Of a stretch of DNA of 64,000 nt, positions 12,653-41,410 are shown piece after piece. Each line of letters opens with the position of its first letter. Position 1 is the stretch's first letter. Source of the DNA: an uncultured Pelagibacteraceae bacterium (GTDB lineage Bacteria; Pseudomonadota; Alphaproteobacteria; Pelagibacterales; Pelagibacteraceae); the NCBI GenBank assembly GCA_902617625.1, contig CACMXJ010000006.1, positions 1-64,000 of the forward strand, given 5' to 3'. The notes under the pieces were generated by a model. It did no database searches, was not told where the DNA came from, and worked only from the letters and a program-made list of their open reading frames with translations. The position numbers and the translations under genes were made by a program.

Positions 12653-13006
12653 AGCCAGATAAACGACTTATCGCTTTAAGAAATTAAAGAGGAAAGTCCG
12701 GGCTCCGCAAGGATACAGTGCCAGGTAATACCTGGCGGGGGCAACCCTAGGGATAGTGCCACAGAAAATAAACCGCCATAACATGGCAAGGGTGAAAAGG
12801 TGTGGTAAGAGCACACCGGTTATATTGGTAACAATGAACGCTGGAAAACCCCACTGGGAGCAAGACTAAGTAGAGGTGACATTGTTGAAAAACTAAAAGC
12901 CATCCTTGGCTAGTCACCTGGGTTAGTCGCTTGAGTTTGGAAGTGATTTCAAACCTAGAGAAATGATAGGTTTAAATGACAGAACCCGGCTTATAGTTTA
13001 TCTGGC
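12653..13006 (+). ncRNA. rnpB: RNase P RNA (bacterial class A); ends approximate
   Basis: Terminal pairing AGCCAGATAAAC/GTTTATCTGGC; GAGGAAAGTCCGGGCTCC, CACCGGTTATATTGGTAACAATGAACGCTGG, GACAGAACCCGGCTTATAG. Confidence 0.95.
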
Positions 13007-13084
13007 AGACTTTTCTAAATTTAACCATTAACAATTTATAAATAAATACTCTAATTTGCTTATCTAAGCCTTTAATTGTATCTA

Positions 13085-13633: not shown

Positions 13634-15100
13634 ATGACAATTAACTTTAAAACTCCAGAGATTAGAGAGTTACAACCAAGACTTTTGGTAATGGGAGTGG
13701 GTGGAGCAGGTGGAAATGCAATAAATGAAATGATTGAAAATGGAATGCAAGGTGTTGAATTCATTGCTGTTAATACTGACGCACAAGATTTAAAACATAG
13801 CAAAGCAAAATCAAAAATTCAAATTGGCTTAAATTTAACTAAAGGTCTCGGTGCAGGTGCAAAAATTGATATAGGTCAAGCTGCAGCCGATGAATCTTTA
13901 AATGATATCGTTAACGTTTTACAAGGTGCAAATATGGTTTTTATAGCTGCCGGAATGGGTGGTGGAACAGGAACTGGTGCTGCACATGTAATAGCAAGAG
14001 CTGCAAAAGAATTAAATATTTTAACTGTTGGAGTAGTGACATTACCATTCTTATATGAGGGTCCTTCAAGAATGAGAAGAGCCCAAATTGGTCTTGAGGA
14101 ATTAAGAAAACACGTAGATACCATAATAGTAATTCCCAATCAAAATTTATTTAAGATAGCAAATGAACAAACTACATTTGAAGAGTCTTTCAATCTATCA
14201 AATAATGTTTTAATGCATGGAGTTCAAAGTGTTACAGACCTGATGGTAAGACCTGGGATCATCAATTTAGATTTTGCTGATGTTGAGACAGTTATGGCAT
14301 CTATGGGTAAAGCTATGATGGGGACAGGAGAAGCTGAAGGCGAGGGAAGATCTATGAAAGCCACAGAAATGGCAATTAGCAATCCTTTAATTGATGACTA
14401 TACTCTCAAAGGCGCAAAGGGATTACTTGTTAATATCACAGGCGGTAAAGATCTTAAATTATTTGAAGTTGATGAAGTAGTTAACAAAATAAGATCTGAG
14501 GTTGAGGCTGACGCTGAAGTTATTATAGGTGCAATAACCGACCCATCTCTTGAAGGTAAAATAAGAGTATCAATTGTTGCAACTGCTTTAGATGGACAAC
14601 AACCTGAAACAAAATCAGTTATCAATATGGTCCACAGAATTCAAAATAGAAATCCTGGATATTCTGATTTCTCGAATCTAGGCTCTAACACTTCTTTTAA
14701 TTTTTCAACTAGCACCCCTATCTCAAGTGGTGCCAATGCATTAAAATTAGAGAATGAAGTATCAAACGAAAATATTAGTGAAAATATTCTGAGTGATAAT
14801 ATTAATCAAATTAATGACCAATATCATGAGGAATTATTAAAAAACCAACAAGTTGAAAGCTTGGTTGAAAACACCAATGAGGATGTGGAAGGTTCTTTCA
14901 CTCAAGAGGCTATTGATGAATCAACCAATGAAGTTGAGATAAATAATGATCTCAAAGAGTTTGGAGTAGATAGTGACGCGCCAGACTTATTTAGCTCTGA
15001 AAACGAGACCTCTTCAACAGAAAATCTGTTGTCGCAAGAAAATGAGGATGAAGAGGATGATTTAGAGATACCAGCATTTTTAAGAAGACAAAAAAATTAA
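13634..15100 (+). CDS. ftsZ: Cell division protein FtsZ
   Basis: [37 protein letters not shown] tubulin signature; C-terminal peptide [22 protein letters not shown] upstream. Confidence 0.98.
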
Positions 15101-18114: not shown

Positions 18115-20958
18115 ATGTTATTAGGCAATTATTTTACCAATATAGATAATAGTAAAAAAAAAATTTTTTTCTCAGGGATTTCATTCAATTCAAAAGATAT
18201 TAAAAAAGATAATATTTTTTTTGCTATAAAAGGAAATAATTTTGATGGAAATAAATTCATTTCTGTTGCAATAAAAAAAGGCTCTAAAATTATTATAAGC
18301 GAGAAAAGAATTACAAATCCTCAAAAGGATATTTTATTCATTCATACTAAAAATATAAGAAAACTTTTAGCAGAAATCGCTTTTAAAATTTATAAGAATA
18401 AACCAAATAATTTAATTGCTGTAACTGGAACAAATGGAAAATCATCTGTTTCAGATTTTTATTTTCAATTGTTAAAACTTAATAAAATAAAAGTCGCCTC
18501 AATCGGAACATTAGGCGTAAAATCGAAAAATATAAGACGAAATTTACAAAATACTACGATAGACCCAATTCGAATGGGACAAATATTATCTAAATTAAAA
18601 TCTCAAAAAATTAATAATGTAATTATGGAAGCGTCCAGCCACGGTCTAACTCAACATAGGTTGGATGGTCTAAAGTTTTCATCTGGTATTTTCACAAATT
18701 TATCTCAAGATCACTTAGATTATCATAAAAATTTTAAAAAATATTTCAAAGCAAAACTGTACCTCTTTGAAAATCTGATAGGAAAGAAAGGAAATGTAAT
18801 AACAGATGAAATATTACCAGAATTTAAAAGAATAAAAAAAATCGCAATTTCTAGAAAATTGAAATTGCAGGTTTTAGATAATAGCAAAAATCAATTTCAA
18901 ATTTTATCTCATAGTTATAGAGGTGAGAAACAAACATTAAAAATTAGATACTATAATCTAACAAGAGAAATAAATTTAAATCTTATTGGAAAAATACAAT
19001 TAAAAAATATTTTAATGGCGATTATTGCAGCAAAAAATAGCAATTTAAGTTTAATCAAGATTCTTAATGTTTTATCACAACTTAAGCCAATAGATGGAAG
19101 ACTTGAAAAAATAGGTAAAATCAAAAATAGGTCTAAAGTAATACTTGATTATGCACATACACCAGATGCACTCAGAATATGTCTTTCAAACCTAAAAGAG
19201 CAATTTCCAAATAAAAAAATAATTTTACTCTTTGGTTGTGGTGGAAATAGAGATCAAAATAAAAGATTTAAAATGGGAAAGATTGCATGTAATTATTCTA
19301 ACGAAATTTATTTAACAGATGATAATCCTAGATTTGAAGATCCAAAAAAAATAAGAGATGATATTAAAAAGGGTATTCAAGACACTTCGATAAAAGAAAT
19401 TCCTGATAGAAAAAAAGCTATTTCTGAGGCTATCAAAAATTTAAATACAGGTGATATTTTGTTGGTTGCTGGAAAAGGTCACGAGAAAACTCAAGATTTT
19501 GGTAAAAAGAAAATTTACTTTTCAGACAAAAAAATTATTTTAGATTGTATTAAACTTAAGAATACAAACTTATCAAAAAACTTTAAGATAAATATTATTA
19601 AAGAATTATCGAAAATCAAAAACAAAATTCCTTTAGTAAAAGCAGACAAAGCAAGAATTAACTCCAAAGAGGTAAATAAGAATGATATCTTTTTTGCTAT
19701 TAAAGGAAAAAAAAATGATGGAAATAAATATATTGGAGAGGCATTTAAAAATAAAGCATCATTAGTTGTAGTAAATAAAGTTCAAAATAAATTTAATAAC
19801 AAACGTCAGATAAAAGTACGAAATACATTAAAATTTATGACTGAAATTTCAAAAATATTTAGACAAAATATCGATACAAATATTATAGCTATTACAGGAA
19901 GTTGTGGAAAAACTACTCTCAAAGAATTATTGGGCAATGTGTTAGGAAAGATTTCTAGTGTTAGTATTTCTCCAAAATCTTATAACAATAAATTTGGAGT
20001 TCCATTAAGTTTACTTAATTTAAAACATAGTGATGAATTTGGAGTTTTAGAGGTTGGTATGGATAAAAAAGGGGAAATAGATAATTTAACAAATATTATA
20101 AAACCAAATGTTGGCTTGATAACTAACATAAATTATGCACATGCAAAAAATTTTAAAAATATCAAACAAATTGCTTTAGCTAAAGCAGAGATAATTAAAA
20201 ATATATTACCCAATGGTTTTGTTGTCTTGAATGCTGATGATAGTTTTTTCAAATTACATAAAAAAATTGCTGAAAAAAATAATATTAATGTGATTTCTTT
20301 TGGGATTAAAACTAAAAAAGCAAATGTTAAGTTGTTTAATATTAAAAAAGTTAAAAAGGCATTTAAAATTAAAGTTAAACTTAATGATAAGTTTAAATAT
20401 TTTATAATTTCTAATAATTTTCAAAGTAATATTTATAATATTTTAAGCGCTTTAAGTGTAATAAGTATTTACAAAGATGTGCTTAAACTTAATGAAAAAA
20501 TTTTCTTAGATTTTAGAAGTCCAGCAGGAAGAGGAGATCATTCTACAATAAAGATAGGTAACAAAAAAATAAACTTAATTGATGAAAGTTATAATTCTAA
20601 TCCTCTATCTTTAAAATCAGCCTTAAAAAATTATGACAACATAGATACAAAAAAATATCGTAAATATCTTTTGCTTGGAGATATGATGGAACTTGGTTCA
20701 CATTCAAAAAAACTTCACCAATCAATAGTTCCTTTAATAAACGAGACAAATATTGATAAAGTATTTGTTATGGGAAAAATGGTAAGAGAAATATTCGATA
20801 ATATTGTGAAAGTAAAAAGAGGAAGAATTTTAGAAAATAAATCAGGAATTTTTGAATTAATTAAGAAAGATTTCAATAATAATGATTATTTAATGATTAA
20901 AGCCTCAAATGCGACAGGTTTCAACAGTATAGTAAATAACTTAAAGGGTTTAAATTAA
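18115..20958 (+). CDS. Fused MurE-MurF UDP-MurNAc-peptide ligases
   Basis: Two Mur ligase modules in one 947-aa ORF: AVTGTNGKSSVSDF ... DYAHTPDAL ... TDDNPRFEDP (MurE) then AITGSCGKTTLKELLG ... DESYNSNPLSLKSAL ... LLLGDMMELG (MurF). Confidence 0.95.
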   Translation: MLLGNYFTNIDNSKKKIFFSGISFNSKDIKKDNIFFAIKGNNFDGNKFISVAIKKGSKIIISEKRITNPQKDILFIHTKNIRKLLAEIAFKIYKNKPNNLIAVTGTNGKSSVSDFYFQLLKLNKIKVASIGTLGVKSKNIRRNLQNTTIDPIRMGQILSKLKSQKINNVIMEASSHGLTQHRLDGLKFSSGIFTNLSQDHLDYHKNFKKYFKAKLYLFENLIGKKGNVITDEILPEFKRIKKIAISRKLKLQVLDNSKNQFQILSHSYRGEKQTLKIRYYNLTREINLNLIGKIQLKNILMAIIAAKNSNLSLIKILNVLSQLKPIDGRLEKIGKIKNRSKVILDYAHTPDALRICLSNLKEQFPNKKIILLFGCGGNRDQNKRFKMGKIACNYSNEIYLTDDNPRFEDPKKIRDDIKKGIQDTSIKEIPDRKKAISEAIKNLNTGDILLVAGKGHEKTQDFGKKKIYFSDKKIILDCIKLKNTNLSKNFKINIIKELSKIKNKIPLVKADKARINSKEVNKNDIFFAIKGKKNDGNKYIGEAFKNKASLVVVNKVQNKFNNKRQIKVRNTLKFMTEISKIFRQNIDTNIIAITGSCGKTTLKELLGNVLGKISSVSISPKSYNNKFGVPLSLLNLKHSDEFGVLEVGMDKKGEIDNLTNIIKPNVGLITNINYAHAKNFKNIKQIALAKAEIIKNILPNGFVVLNADDSFFKLHKKIAEKNNINVISFGIKTKKANVKLFNIKKVKKAFKIKVKLNDKFKYFIISNNFQSNIYNILSALSVISIYKDVLKLNEKIFLDFRSPAGRGDHSTIKIGNKKINLIDESYNSNPLSLKSALKNYDNIDTKKYRKYLLLGDMMELGSHSKKLHQSIVPLINETNIDKVFVMGKMVREIFDNIVKVKRGRILENKSGIFELIKKDFNNNDYLMIKASNATGFNSIVNNLKGLN

Positions 20959-27813: not shown

Positions 27814-28728
27814 TTGAAAAAAAAAATTTTGATAATCTCAGGTGGTATTTCTAAGGAAAGAATTATCAGCTTGGAGACAGGAAGACAGGTTGCTAAAGAA
27901 CTAAAAAAAAATAATTATAAAGTAAAAATATGTGAGCCAGACAAAAATTTAATATCTGTAACAAAAAGTTTTAAACCCCACTTCATTTTTAATGCCCTAC
28001 ATGGGCAGTTTGGAGAAGATGGATATATACAAACAATCCTTGAGACAATAGGTATACCTTATACCCATTCAGGTGTGATTGCCTCGGCTAAGGCAATGGA
28101 TAAAGAAATTTCTAAAAAAATTTTTATTAAAAATAAAATTTTAACACCTAAATATTTCATTTTTACTTTTAATAAAACTAATAAAGAACTTATAAGTTTA
28201 GTAAAAAAAAAGTTGAACTTTCCTGTTGTAATTAAACCAATTAATGAAGGTTCTAGTGTAAATGTTTATATTTGTACTAAGAATAATTTATCGAGAAAGA
28301 TAAAATTATTAAAAGATTATAAAAAAATATTGATAGAACAATTTATTCCTGGGAGAGAAATACAATCAGCTATAATTGGAAAGAAAAAGCTCGGAGCAAT
28401 TGAACTTAAGCCAAAAAGAAAATTTTATGATTACCAGGCAAAGTACAATTCTAATGCTAAGACAGAGCATATCATTCCAGTAGACCTGCCAAAGAAAAAA
28501 TATAAAGCTCTTATGGACATTACTTTTAAAGCACATACTTTGATGGGATGTAGAGGTGTTTCCAGATCAGATTTTAAATATTTTAGAGGAAAATTTTATC
28601 TTTTAGAAATTAATACCCAACCTGGAATGACAAAACTATCTTTAGTTCCAGAGATATCAGCTTATATTGGAATTAATTTCTTAAATTTAATTAAATTAAT
28701 TTTAAAAGATGCATCAATTAATAAGTAA
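27814..28728 (+). CDS. ddl: D-alanine--D-alanine ligase (TTG start)
   Basis: SGGISKERIISLETG, FNALHGQFGEDGYIQTILE, PYTHSGVIASAKAMDK, LLEINTQPGMT. Confidence 0.95.
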   Translation: MKKKILIISGGISKERIISLETGRQVAKELKKNNYKVKICEPDKNLISVTKSFKPHFIFNALHGQFGEDGYIQTILETIGIPYTHSGVIASAKAMDKEISKKIFIKNKILTPKYFIFTFNKTNKELISLVKKKLNFPVVIKPINEGSSVNVYICTKNNLSRKIKLLKDYKKILIEQFIPGREIQSAIIGKKKLGAIELKPKRKFYDYQAKYNSNAKTEHIIPVDLPKKKYKALMDITFKAHTLMGCRGVSRSDFKYFRGKFYLLEINTQPGMTKLSLVPEISAYIGINFLNLIKLILKDASINK

Positions 28729-29383
28729 AAAAATTATAGTTTACTTTTTAATGTTTTGTTTTCTTGTATCAATAAATAATATTTCATTCATGAATGTTAG
28801 TTTTCCAAAAATTAGTGAGGTAGAGATAAATGGTTTAAACTCAGATGAAAGAAAAAAAATTGAAGATATTATCTATGATTCTAATTTTAAAAATATTTTT
28901 TATTTAGATAAAGAATATTTAAAAAGAAAGATCAATTCAATTAATATTATTGAACAATTTGAAATATTTAAAAATTATCCATCAACTTTAAAAATTTTTA
29001 TAAAAAAAACAGAAATACTTGCACAAACAAAAAAAAATGGTTTTGATTATTTGATTGGATCAAATGGAAAGTTAATTGAAAACAAAGATTTTACATTAGA
29101 ACTTCCTTTTATATTTGGTGATTTAAACATATTAGAGTTTCTCGAATTAAAAAGGAAAATTGATAGCTCTCTTTTTGAATTTAGCGAAATTTTAAACTTA
29201 TATGTGTATAAGTCAAATAGGTGGGATATTGAAACTCGTAATGGAAATTTAATAAAACTTCCGAAAAATGATATTAAGAGGATATTAAATTTATATGTTC
29301 GATTGTCTAATGAAGAAAAAATTAACGAAAAAACAATTGTTGACTTTCGTCAAAAAAACCAAATCATACTAAATGATAAATAG
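28709..29383 (+). CDS. ftsQ: Cell division protein FtsQ
   Basis: 224 aa, N-terminal TM then POTRA-like ISEVEINGLNSDERKKIEDII; position between ddl and ftsA-like gene. Confidence 0.8.
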   Translation: MHQLISKKIIVYFLMFCFLVSINNISFMNVSFPKISEVEINGLNSDERKKIEDIIYDSNFKNIFYLDKEYLKRKINSINIIEQFEIFKNYPSTLKIFIKKTEILAQTKKNGFDYLIGSNGKLIENKDFTLELPFIFGDLNILEFLELKRKIDSSLFEFSEILNLYVYKSNRWDIETRNGNLIKLPKNDIKRILNLYVRLSNEEKINEKTIVDFRQKNQIILNDK

Positions 29384-30074
29384 TTCAGTTAATAAGACGT
29401 TTATCTTTATTGCTTCAAATAAATTTATAATTTTATCGCTCAATGAAGCAAATAAGATTAATTATAAAAAAGAAACTATTTTTAAAGATCAAAATAAAAA
29501 ATTTGACTTGAATTTATTTAATGAATTTTTGAATGAAAATATTTTTAAAATTGAAAAAGAATTGGGTGAATTCATTAAGGTTATATATCTAATAATTGAA
29601 AATGAAGAAATTTTTTCAGTTAATCTTTCAATTAAGAATAAGATTAATGAAATTACAATTAATGCAAAAATAATTAATAATTTATTAATAGAAGCCAAGA
29701 ATTATTGTGAAGAAACTTTGAGAAAAGCAGAAGTTATTCATATGAAAATTGATCAATTTTTCATTGATAATGAATACTATAAAGTTTTACCAGATAAAGT
29801 TACCTGTAAAAGTTTATCTTTAGATTTAAGTTTTATCTGTGTACCAAAAAATATTTTGAATAATTTTGAAAAAATCTTAAATAATTTTCAGATATCTGTT
29901 TATAGAACAATTAGTTATCAGTACCTTCATAGTTATTTTAAAATTAGCACTAATAATTTAGAATTAGTTGCACAAAAAATTCTGACTGGTTTTAATGAAA
30001 ATGAAGTGATTTTAATGAAAAAAAAACCAAAAAACCTTGGTTTTTTTGAGAAATTTTTCAATTATTTCAATTAA
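29373..30074 (+). CDS. Truncated/divergent FtsA-like protein
   Basis: Position between ftsQ and lpxC; FICVPKNILNNFEKILNNFQISVYRTISYQYLHSYF resembles FtsA subdomain 1C; C-terminal amphipathic NLGFFEKFFNYFN resembles the FtsA membrane-targeting helix; 233 aa only. Confidence 0.6.
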   Translation: MINSSVNKTFIFIASNKFIILSLNEANKINYKKETIFKDQNKKFDLNLFNEFLNENIFKIEKELGEFIKVIYLIIENEEIFSVNLSIKNKINEITINAKIINNLLIEAKNYCEETLRKAEVIHMKIDQFFIDNEYYKVLPDKVTCKSLSLDLSFICVPKNILNNFEKILNNFQISVYRTISYQYLHSYFKISTNNLELVAQKILTGFNENEVILMKKKPKNLGFFEKFFNYFN

Positions 30075-30137: not shown

Positions 30138-31058
30138 GTGTCTTTATTAAACCAAAAAACAATTAAAAAAAAAGTTTCCTTCAGTGGGGTAGGTCTACAC
30201 AGTGGTAAAGTAATCAAAATTTGTGTTAAACCTTCTGAGCCAGATACTGGAATTGTTTTCAAAAGAGTTGATTTAAAAGAAAATAATTTTATTTATCCAA
30301 ATTTCATGAACGTAAGTAGCACAGCCCTTTGCACAACTATTAGTAACAGTTATGGAGCAAAAGTTTCAACTATTGAACATTTAATGGGTGCATTATTTGG
30401 ACTTGGAATTGATAATGCTTTGGTAGAAATTGATAATGATGAAGTTCCAATTTTAGATGGGTCAGCCAAGTTGTTTATAAATGAAATTTTATCAGTAGGT
30501 TTAGAATCAAGTAATAAACCTATTAAGATCATAAAAATAAACAAAAAAGTAGAATTTAAAAATGGTGATAAGTTTATTTCAATCGAACCTTCAAAGTTAA
30601 GTCTAGATATAGATTTTAAACTTAAGTATCAAAATCAAATTATTGGTAACCAAAGAAATAAGATTAACGTTTATGAGGATAATCTTGAAGAAATTTTTAA
30701 TTCAAGAACATTTTGTTTATACGAAGATATTGAGGCAATAAAGAAAAAAGGTCTAGCAAAAGGTGGAAGTTTAGAGAATGCGATAGTTGTTAAAGGAGAA
30801 AACATTTTAAATCCAAATGGTTTAAGAAATACCAAAGAATTTGTTAATCATAAAATTTTAGATTGTATTGGTGATCTTTTTACCAGCGGATATAGAATGA
30901 TAGCAAGTGTAAACTGTTCTCAGGGAGGTCATTCCATGACGAATAGTTTATTAAGAAAAGTATTTGAAAACAAAGATAATTTTTCAATCGTTGAAATACA
31001 AGAAAGAACACTTCCACATACATTGATAAATAGAAGCTTATTGAGATCAATAGCTTAA
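30138..31058 (+). CDS. lpxC: UDP-3-O-acyl-N-acetylglucosamine deacetylase (GTG start)
   Basis: VSFSGVGLHSGK, STIEHLMGALFGLGIDNALVEID, EVPILDGSA, KILDCIGDLF, GGHSMTNSLLRK. Confidence 0.97.
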   Translation: MSLLNQKTIKKKVSFSGVGLHSGKVIKICVKPSEPDTGIVFKRVDLKENNFIYPNFMNVSSTALCTTISNSYGAKVSTIEHLMGALFGLGIDNALVEIDNDEVPILDGSAKLFINEILSVGLESSNKPIKIIKINKKVEFKNGDKFISIEPSKLSLDIDFKLKYQNQIIGNQRNKINVYEDNLEEIFNSRTFCLYEDIEAIKKKGLAKGGSLENAIVVKGENILNPNGLRNTKEFVNHKILDCIGDLFTSGYRMIASVNCSQGGHSMTNSLLRKVFENKDNFSIVEIQERTLPHTLINRSLLRSIA

Positions 31059-41106: not shown

Positions 41107-41350
41107 AAAGGGGCGTTCTGTTGCCAGGTGCCCCGAACCCCGTTTACTTAATTAACTAAGTTAATTAAGCAGCAAGTGCGTAACTTTCGTTAGCAATTAT
41201 AAATTAGCCCTTTACGGAGGAACAATTCCGAACGAAAGAATAGCCTTTAGTCACTCGTCGAATCTAGTTCACCCCCATAAGTTGTAAATGGTGGAGGTGG
41301 TGGGTACTGCCCCCACGTCCGCAATGGTTATTACGAAATTCGTTTATCGT
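41107..41350 (-). ncRNA. ssrA: Permuted two-piece tmRNA gene (acceptor piece 5', 12-nt intervening segment, coding piece 3'); outer ends approximate
   Basis: Minus strand: T arm GTGGG-GGCAGTA-CCCAC, CACCTCC-ACCA (41289-41316), spacer 41277-41288, then GGGGGTG...GATTCGACGAG (from 41276). Acceptor GGGGGTG pairs CACCTCC. Tag ORF 41165-41194 encodes ANESYALAA-stop. Confidence 0.93.
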
Positions 41351-41374
41351 CATAGTTGGAAATCCAACTTTATT

Positions 41375-41402
41375 AATATAAAAGGAATTGCTAGAGATTC
41401 AA
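41375..41402 (-). promoter_or_regulatory. Putative sigma-70 promoter of ssrA
   Basis: Minus strand TTGAAT (41402-41397), 16-nt spacer, TATATT (41380-41375), pointing toward ssrA. Confidence 0.55.
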
Positions 41403-41410
41403 TAACAATC

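Follow-up and report, generated by a model that had tools for sequence, protein, structure and literature searches.

The window analysed here, a 64,000-nucleotide stretch of AT-rich Pelagibacteraceae DNA, carries a division and cell-wall (dcw) cluster in which the place of ftsA is held by a gene for a protein of only 233 amino acids. Alignment and structure prediction show that this Pelagibacter (SAR11) gene is orthologous to ftsA and that its product has been cut back to actin domain I. In the usual account, FtsA is an actin homologue that binds ATP, links FtsZ to the membrane by way of its 2B subdomain and polymerises through domain II. The reduced protein, which we call mini-FtsA, probably acts (we put this at about 70%) as a 1A-1C adaptor that sits on the membrane, does without ATP and serves partners in the divisome. 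Orthologues of its size make up a large natural set of FtsA proteins devoid of ATP site, 2B and domain II in highly abundant ocean bacteria. In the open-licence literature we found neither a reduced FtsA described nor any account of FtsA in SAR11; an earlier report may exist elsewhere.

Architecture of the gene in the ftsA slot

The cluster reads mraZ-ftsZ-rsmH-ftsI-murE/F-mraY-murD-ftsW-murG-murC-murB-ddl-ftsQ-[233 aa]-lpxC, and the nearest named relatives of the 233-aa protein all come from Pelagibacteraceae or Pelagibacter genomes, mostly single cells. The features on which the argument rests are these:

13634..15100, forward strand: ftsZ, flanked by mraZ and rsmH
15062..15097, forward strand: FtsZ C-terminal tail, conserved and retained despite the loss of its 2B partner
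28709..29383, forward strand: ftsQ, overlapping mini-ftsA by 11 bases
29373..30074, forward strand: mini-ftsA coding sequence, 233 aa, FtsA domain I plus membrane-targeting helix (open reading frame, TIGR01174, alignment, model, Foldseek)
29394..29480, forward strand: N-terminal strands of 1A, residues 8-36, site of the phosphate-1 loop with its D and G lost (model, motif counts)
29508..29597, forward strand: first helix and next strand of 1A, residues 46-75 (alignment, model)
29607..29834, forward strand: 1C (SHS2) subdomain, residues 79-154 (sub-threshold PF02491, model, Foldseek)
29847..29936, forward strand: second part of 1A, residues 159-188, ending just past Y184 (alignment, model)
29937..29948, forward strand: junction, residues 189-192, where about 150 residues of full-length 2A and 2B are missing (alignment)
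29949..29987, forward strand: last 1A helix, residues 193-205, homologous to full-length ICESGxK (alignment, model)
30039..30071, forward strand: C-terminal amphipathic membrane-targeting helix GFFEKFFNYFN (conservation; helix 224-232 in the model)
30138..31058, forward strand: lpxC, the downstream neighbor in the loci examined (gene order)

These coordinates agree with the first-pass annotation, which had put the gene in the ftsA slot between ftsQ and lpxC and overlapping ftsQ. The canonical FtsZ tail it described (EIPAFLRRQ) is also present; ftsZ, however, is not adjacent to ftsA, lying 14 kb upstream at the head of the cluster. It sits between mraZ and rsmH in mini and full-length species of the genus alike, in those loci (L063-L122) that extend that far, and was not seen in the fetched stretch of the outgroup locus L082.

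Against full-length relatives of the same genus, the minis align with a single gap of about 150 residues, which opens a few residues past Y184, invariant among minis, and closes just before the last 1A helix. In that helix region the full-length proteins read ICESGxKxxxG..QEVVIVPKK and the window protein LELVAQKILTGFNENEVILMKKK, followed in both by a GFFEK(F/L)F helix; the distance from Y184 to the C-terminus is 49-54 residues in every mini examined. Domain II (2A and 2B, with the FtsZ-tail site and the longitudinal interface) is thus absent from the aligned mini protein, and alignment and model place its excision directly ahead of the last 1A helix, where the middle segment of 1A ends. The predicted C-terminal amphipathic membrane-targeting helix is present and as conserved as in full-length FtsA. 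The 1C subdomain, inserted in 1A, is present by structure prediction; by sequence it gives only a sub-threshold Pfam match. The proposed loss of 2A and 2B therefore stands, and the jump from 1A-1C to an amphipathic membrane anchor is confirmed by an alignment in which the cut is cleaner than could be seen at first reading. What has to be enlarged is the inventory of domain I, all segments of which are retained: the last 1A helix (ELVAQKILTG) is there, and so, in degenerate form, is the hairpin at the N-terminus of 1A.

The ATP site did not survive. Both D and G of the phosphate-1 DxG motif occur in all 37 full-length proteins compared and in none of 60 minis; the R that follows the motif is found in 36 of the 37 and again in 0/60. 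The phosphate-2 and adenosine motif regions are deleted in minis, in keeping with the earlier remark that no GGGT phosphate-2 loop or later actin motif could be seen. Loss of phosphate-1 together with the whole of domain II argues strongly that the protein would be ATP-independent, as the annotation had suggested.

A probable adaptor half and the question of FtsZ tethering

FtsN docks with its cytoplasmic end in the 1A-1C cleft of full-length FtsA, in whose double filament 1C makes the lateral contacts and 2A-2B the longitudinal ones (PMC7613929). The mini keeps the parts for the 1A-1C cleft and the 1C lateral contacts and loses those for the 2A-2B longitudinal contacts, which favors the view of an ATP-free 1A-1C membrane adaptor. 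We infer a protein that would sit on the inner membrane without ATP and, being incapable of actin-type longitudinal (2A/2B) polymerisation, would serve as a static adaptor. Through its 1A-1C cleft and through contacts between 1C subdomains it would bind division proteins that act downstream and bring them into clusters, the model for cleft binding being FtsN on full-length FtsA. The tethering of FtsZ would fall to some other protein that binds its tail. What the mini shares with FtsA (TIGR01174; PDB 4A2A, 7Q6D, 7Q6I) is operon position, 1A, 1C, the last 1A helix and the C-terminal amphipathic membrane helix, besides orthology by synteny with the full-length FtsA of sister species. It differs in having neither 2A/2B nor ATP motifs, and hence neither the known FtsZ-tail site nor the longitudinal polymer interface. 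PilM of type IV pili (PDB 5EOX, 2YCH), the second-best fold match, is an actin-like protein that resembles the mini in its 1C-type subdomain and uses its 1A-1C cleft to bind a short cytoplasmic tail, that of PilN. PilM, however, is a nucleotide-binding part of the pilus machinery with two actin domains, whereas the mini has a single domain, no full actin fold with nucleotide site, and a gene in the dcw cluster rather than a pil operon.

A replacement for the missing half was sought in the genome sequences. Besides mini-ftsA, an ftsA profile run against the window's genome found only MreB, whose gene lies in the window, and an actin-like frame of 647 aa, which by its size may be DnaK-like. No full-length ftsA was found in this genome, whose completeness of 92.6% means that absences there rest partly on closed relatives, nor in four single-contig genomes that carry a mini (G338, G341, G345 and G122). 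A second, full-length ftsA, one of the two findings that would have refuted the first-pass annotation, was thus rejected for both. The idea of a split gene with domain II encoded elsewhere was likewise abandoned: a profile of Pelagibacter FtsA domain II returned nothing at E ≤1 in 10 of 11 mini genomes and one chance-level match (E 0.03) in the eleventh (G349), and recovered full-length FtsA in 5/5 positive controls. The mini is the only FtsA found in its genome.

The search for zapA and sepF that the annotation had recommended gave ZapA in 15 of 16 genomes, which is uninformative, and no SepF above cut-off in these genomes. SepF is a small FtsZ membrane tether that replaces FtsA in some bacteria; it offers a comparison as a small tether and is unrelated to the mini. 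FtsE was not found above cut-off in mini or full-length genomes. FtsN was not recognised either; the single SPOR protein, first taken for FtsN, reads as an RlpA-type lipoprotein. The lack of a recognised FtsN, and of a SepF or an FtsE above cut-off as FtsZ tether, speaks against the adaptor view.

The lack of a SepF or an FtsE above cut-off lends weight to the best-placed alternative, in which mini-FtsA remains the main FtsZ tether and a new site in domain I has replaced 2B in binding the FtsZ tail. The mini has a membrane helix and no other FtsA was found in its genome; minor changes apart, mini and full-length genomes encode the same FtsZ tail. In solved FtsA structures the FtsZ tail binds 2B; with this site gone in minis, the tail there must be bound by a different partner or at a new site. 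However, no new conserved surface was identified on the mini, and the tail, which may have other partners, shows no compensating change. On balance, we regard a new tail site in domain I as unlikely, though as the leading competitor to the adaptor. The unchanged tail in mini species in any case raises the question of what holds FtsZ at the membrane.

Selection on the remaining half

The constraints on the protein have changed. Conservation drops from 2.96 bits per column in full-length proteins to 2.04 in minis at the phosphate-1 strand and loop; it is hardly different in 1C (2.31 versus 2.22) and in the membrane helix (3.52 versus 3.54). Such a pattern would be expected if ATP binding had been lost and a membrane function of 1A-1C kept. 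Comparison among relatives, as proposed at the outset, gave dN/dS ratios (NG86) of 0.13-0.24 for close mini pairs, against 0.12-0.21 for full-length FtsA, with FtsQ similar. Mini-FtsA is under purifying selection. The remaining half, staying under selection, probably does something essential by itself.

Decay into a functionless remnant of ftsA, on its way to being lost, is suggested by the fast evolution of the protein, by the disappearance of its ATP motif and by broken mini-ftsA frames at two loci, L063 (genome G012) and L064 (G180). Set against these are the dN/dS values of closely related pairs, more than 100 intact minis of near-constant length, and invariant residues together with a conserved membrane helix. 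At L063, moreover, further genes are broken (mraY is split and murD shortened), which suggests sequencing errors; at L064 most neighbors look intact. We consider decay very improbable.

Descent and distribution of the short form

The family assignment rests on profiles and fold. TIGR01174 (ftsA) matches the window protein with 24.2 bits (E 1.5e-5) over profile positions 45-182 of 371 only, far below its curated cut-off of 175.85 bits, under which full-length Pelagibacter FtsA also falls; sub-cut-off matches were obtained with 62 of 75 minis. The Pfam SHS2_FTSA model (PF02491) gives its sub-threshold match over residues 79-154. A lone mini sequence searched against the PDB returned noise, so that profiles were required. 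With family profiles, solved FtsA structures rank first; for the profile of 75 minis, FtsA entries are the sole matches up to E 5, if weak ones (E 0.008-0.09). An AlphaFold2 model of the window protein, built on a 75-sequence alignment of close relatives from one mini clade, reached a pLDDT of 84.5 and a pTM of 0.79. It has the 1A/1C fold on which the first-pass annotation had made its case depend, and in Foldseek ranks 1-19 are all FtsA (best 4a2a, E 1e-12), PilM coming next. A search of a viral fold library gave nothing useful.

The very weak Pfam match and the distance from the TIGR01174 cut-off might point to an unrelated protein that had moved into the place of ftsA and acquired an FtsA-like membrane helix by convergence. 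This is hardly credible given the predicted FtsA fold and the way full-length proteins of sister lineages align throughout domain I (54% identity between the L086 mini and the L118 full-length protein) and along the C-terminal stretch. Together with the ftsQ-ftsA-lpxC order common to minis and full-length relatives in the loci compared, the domain I alignment supports common locus and common descent.

Mini-size orthologues occur in more than 100 species of the genus, which shows that the frame did not arise by chance. FtsA lengths in the genus are strictly bimodal: 220-246 aa or 363-406 aa. Among the best-scoring matches listed for a 300-genome sample of the genus, 134 frames look whole. Of these, 107 measure 220-246 aa and the other 27 measure 370-406 aa, a proportion that is not an abundance ratio since the search profile favors minis; none of the 134 is of intermediate length. 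In the extracted locus set some full-length frames are as short as 363 aa. Two loci, L065 (G152) and L066 (G122), have somewhat smaller minis, of 220-222 aa, whose frame is intact; G122 is a single-contig genome. Many of the genomes are single-cell or metagenome assemblies, but an assembly or sequencing artefact can be dismissed, as more than 100 independent assemblies, among them the four single-contig genomes, carry the mini with an intact frame.

FtsA frames measure 378-420 aa across seven other genera from the same family and order, except for two that are short at contig ends. No FtsA was seen in the one genome of a further genus (g4), and three genomes from another family of the order (G069, G077, G084) had no FtsA-length match among the matches listed, only MreB-like or weak ones; these genomes may be incomplete or lack ftsA. 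Since other genera have full-length FtsA, this is most likely the ancestral state.

How the mini form arose is told differently by different trees. In a tree of 14 neighboring dcw genes, used as species tree and drawn from one genomic region with several incomplete rows, minis occupy at least 4 to 5 separate positions with full-length lineages between them, and a single mini clade is rejected (log-likelihood 1299 lower, p about 1e-8); single-gene trees (ftsQ, lpxC and others) call for 4-9 changes and were of no help. The scatter in the cluster tree implies that the mini form arose repeatedly or spread by recombination. In a full-column tree of FtsA domain I, by contrast, minis form one clade (support 99), and a grouping of the window's clade with its full-length sisters is rejected (p 0.009). 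The columns that set minis apart lie mainly in the phosphate-1 loop and near the junction, positions that would change in parallel after any loss of domain II. When only the middle columns are used, the minis no longer hold together, and the test rejects neither a single origin (p 0.38) nor the grouping of the cluster tree (p 0.32). The FtsA sequence is thus compatible both with repeated loss and with a single loss whose allele then passed between species by recombination. We entertain only tentatively the possibility that several independent events, each cutting at almost the same place, reduced Pelagibacter FtsA to one actin half free of ATP. Were it true, FtsZ tethering and ATP-driven polymerisation would be the dispensable part of FtsA, and the 1A-1C membrane adaptor the indispensable one. 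Close pairs of mini and full-length species offer a natural experiment on which FtsA function is essential.

Three further observations concern the surroundings of the gene. MurE and MurF are apparently fused in the window into one 947-aa protein (18115-20958), in which stretches of the Mur ligase middle domain and of the C-terminal domain each occur twice, whereas at the outgroup locus L082 they are two separate proteins. A class A RNase P RNA (12655-13009) lies directly upstream of mraZ, and a tmRNA of the alphaproteobacterial permuted type is encoded on the minus strand at 41107-41406.
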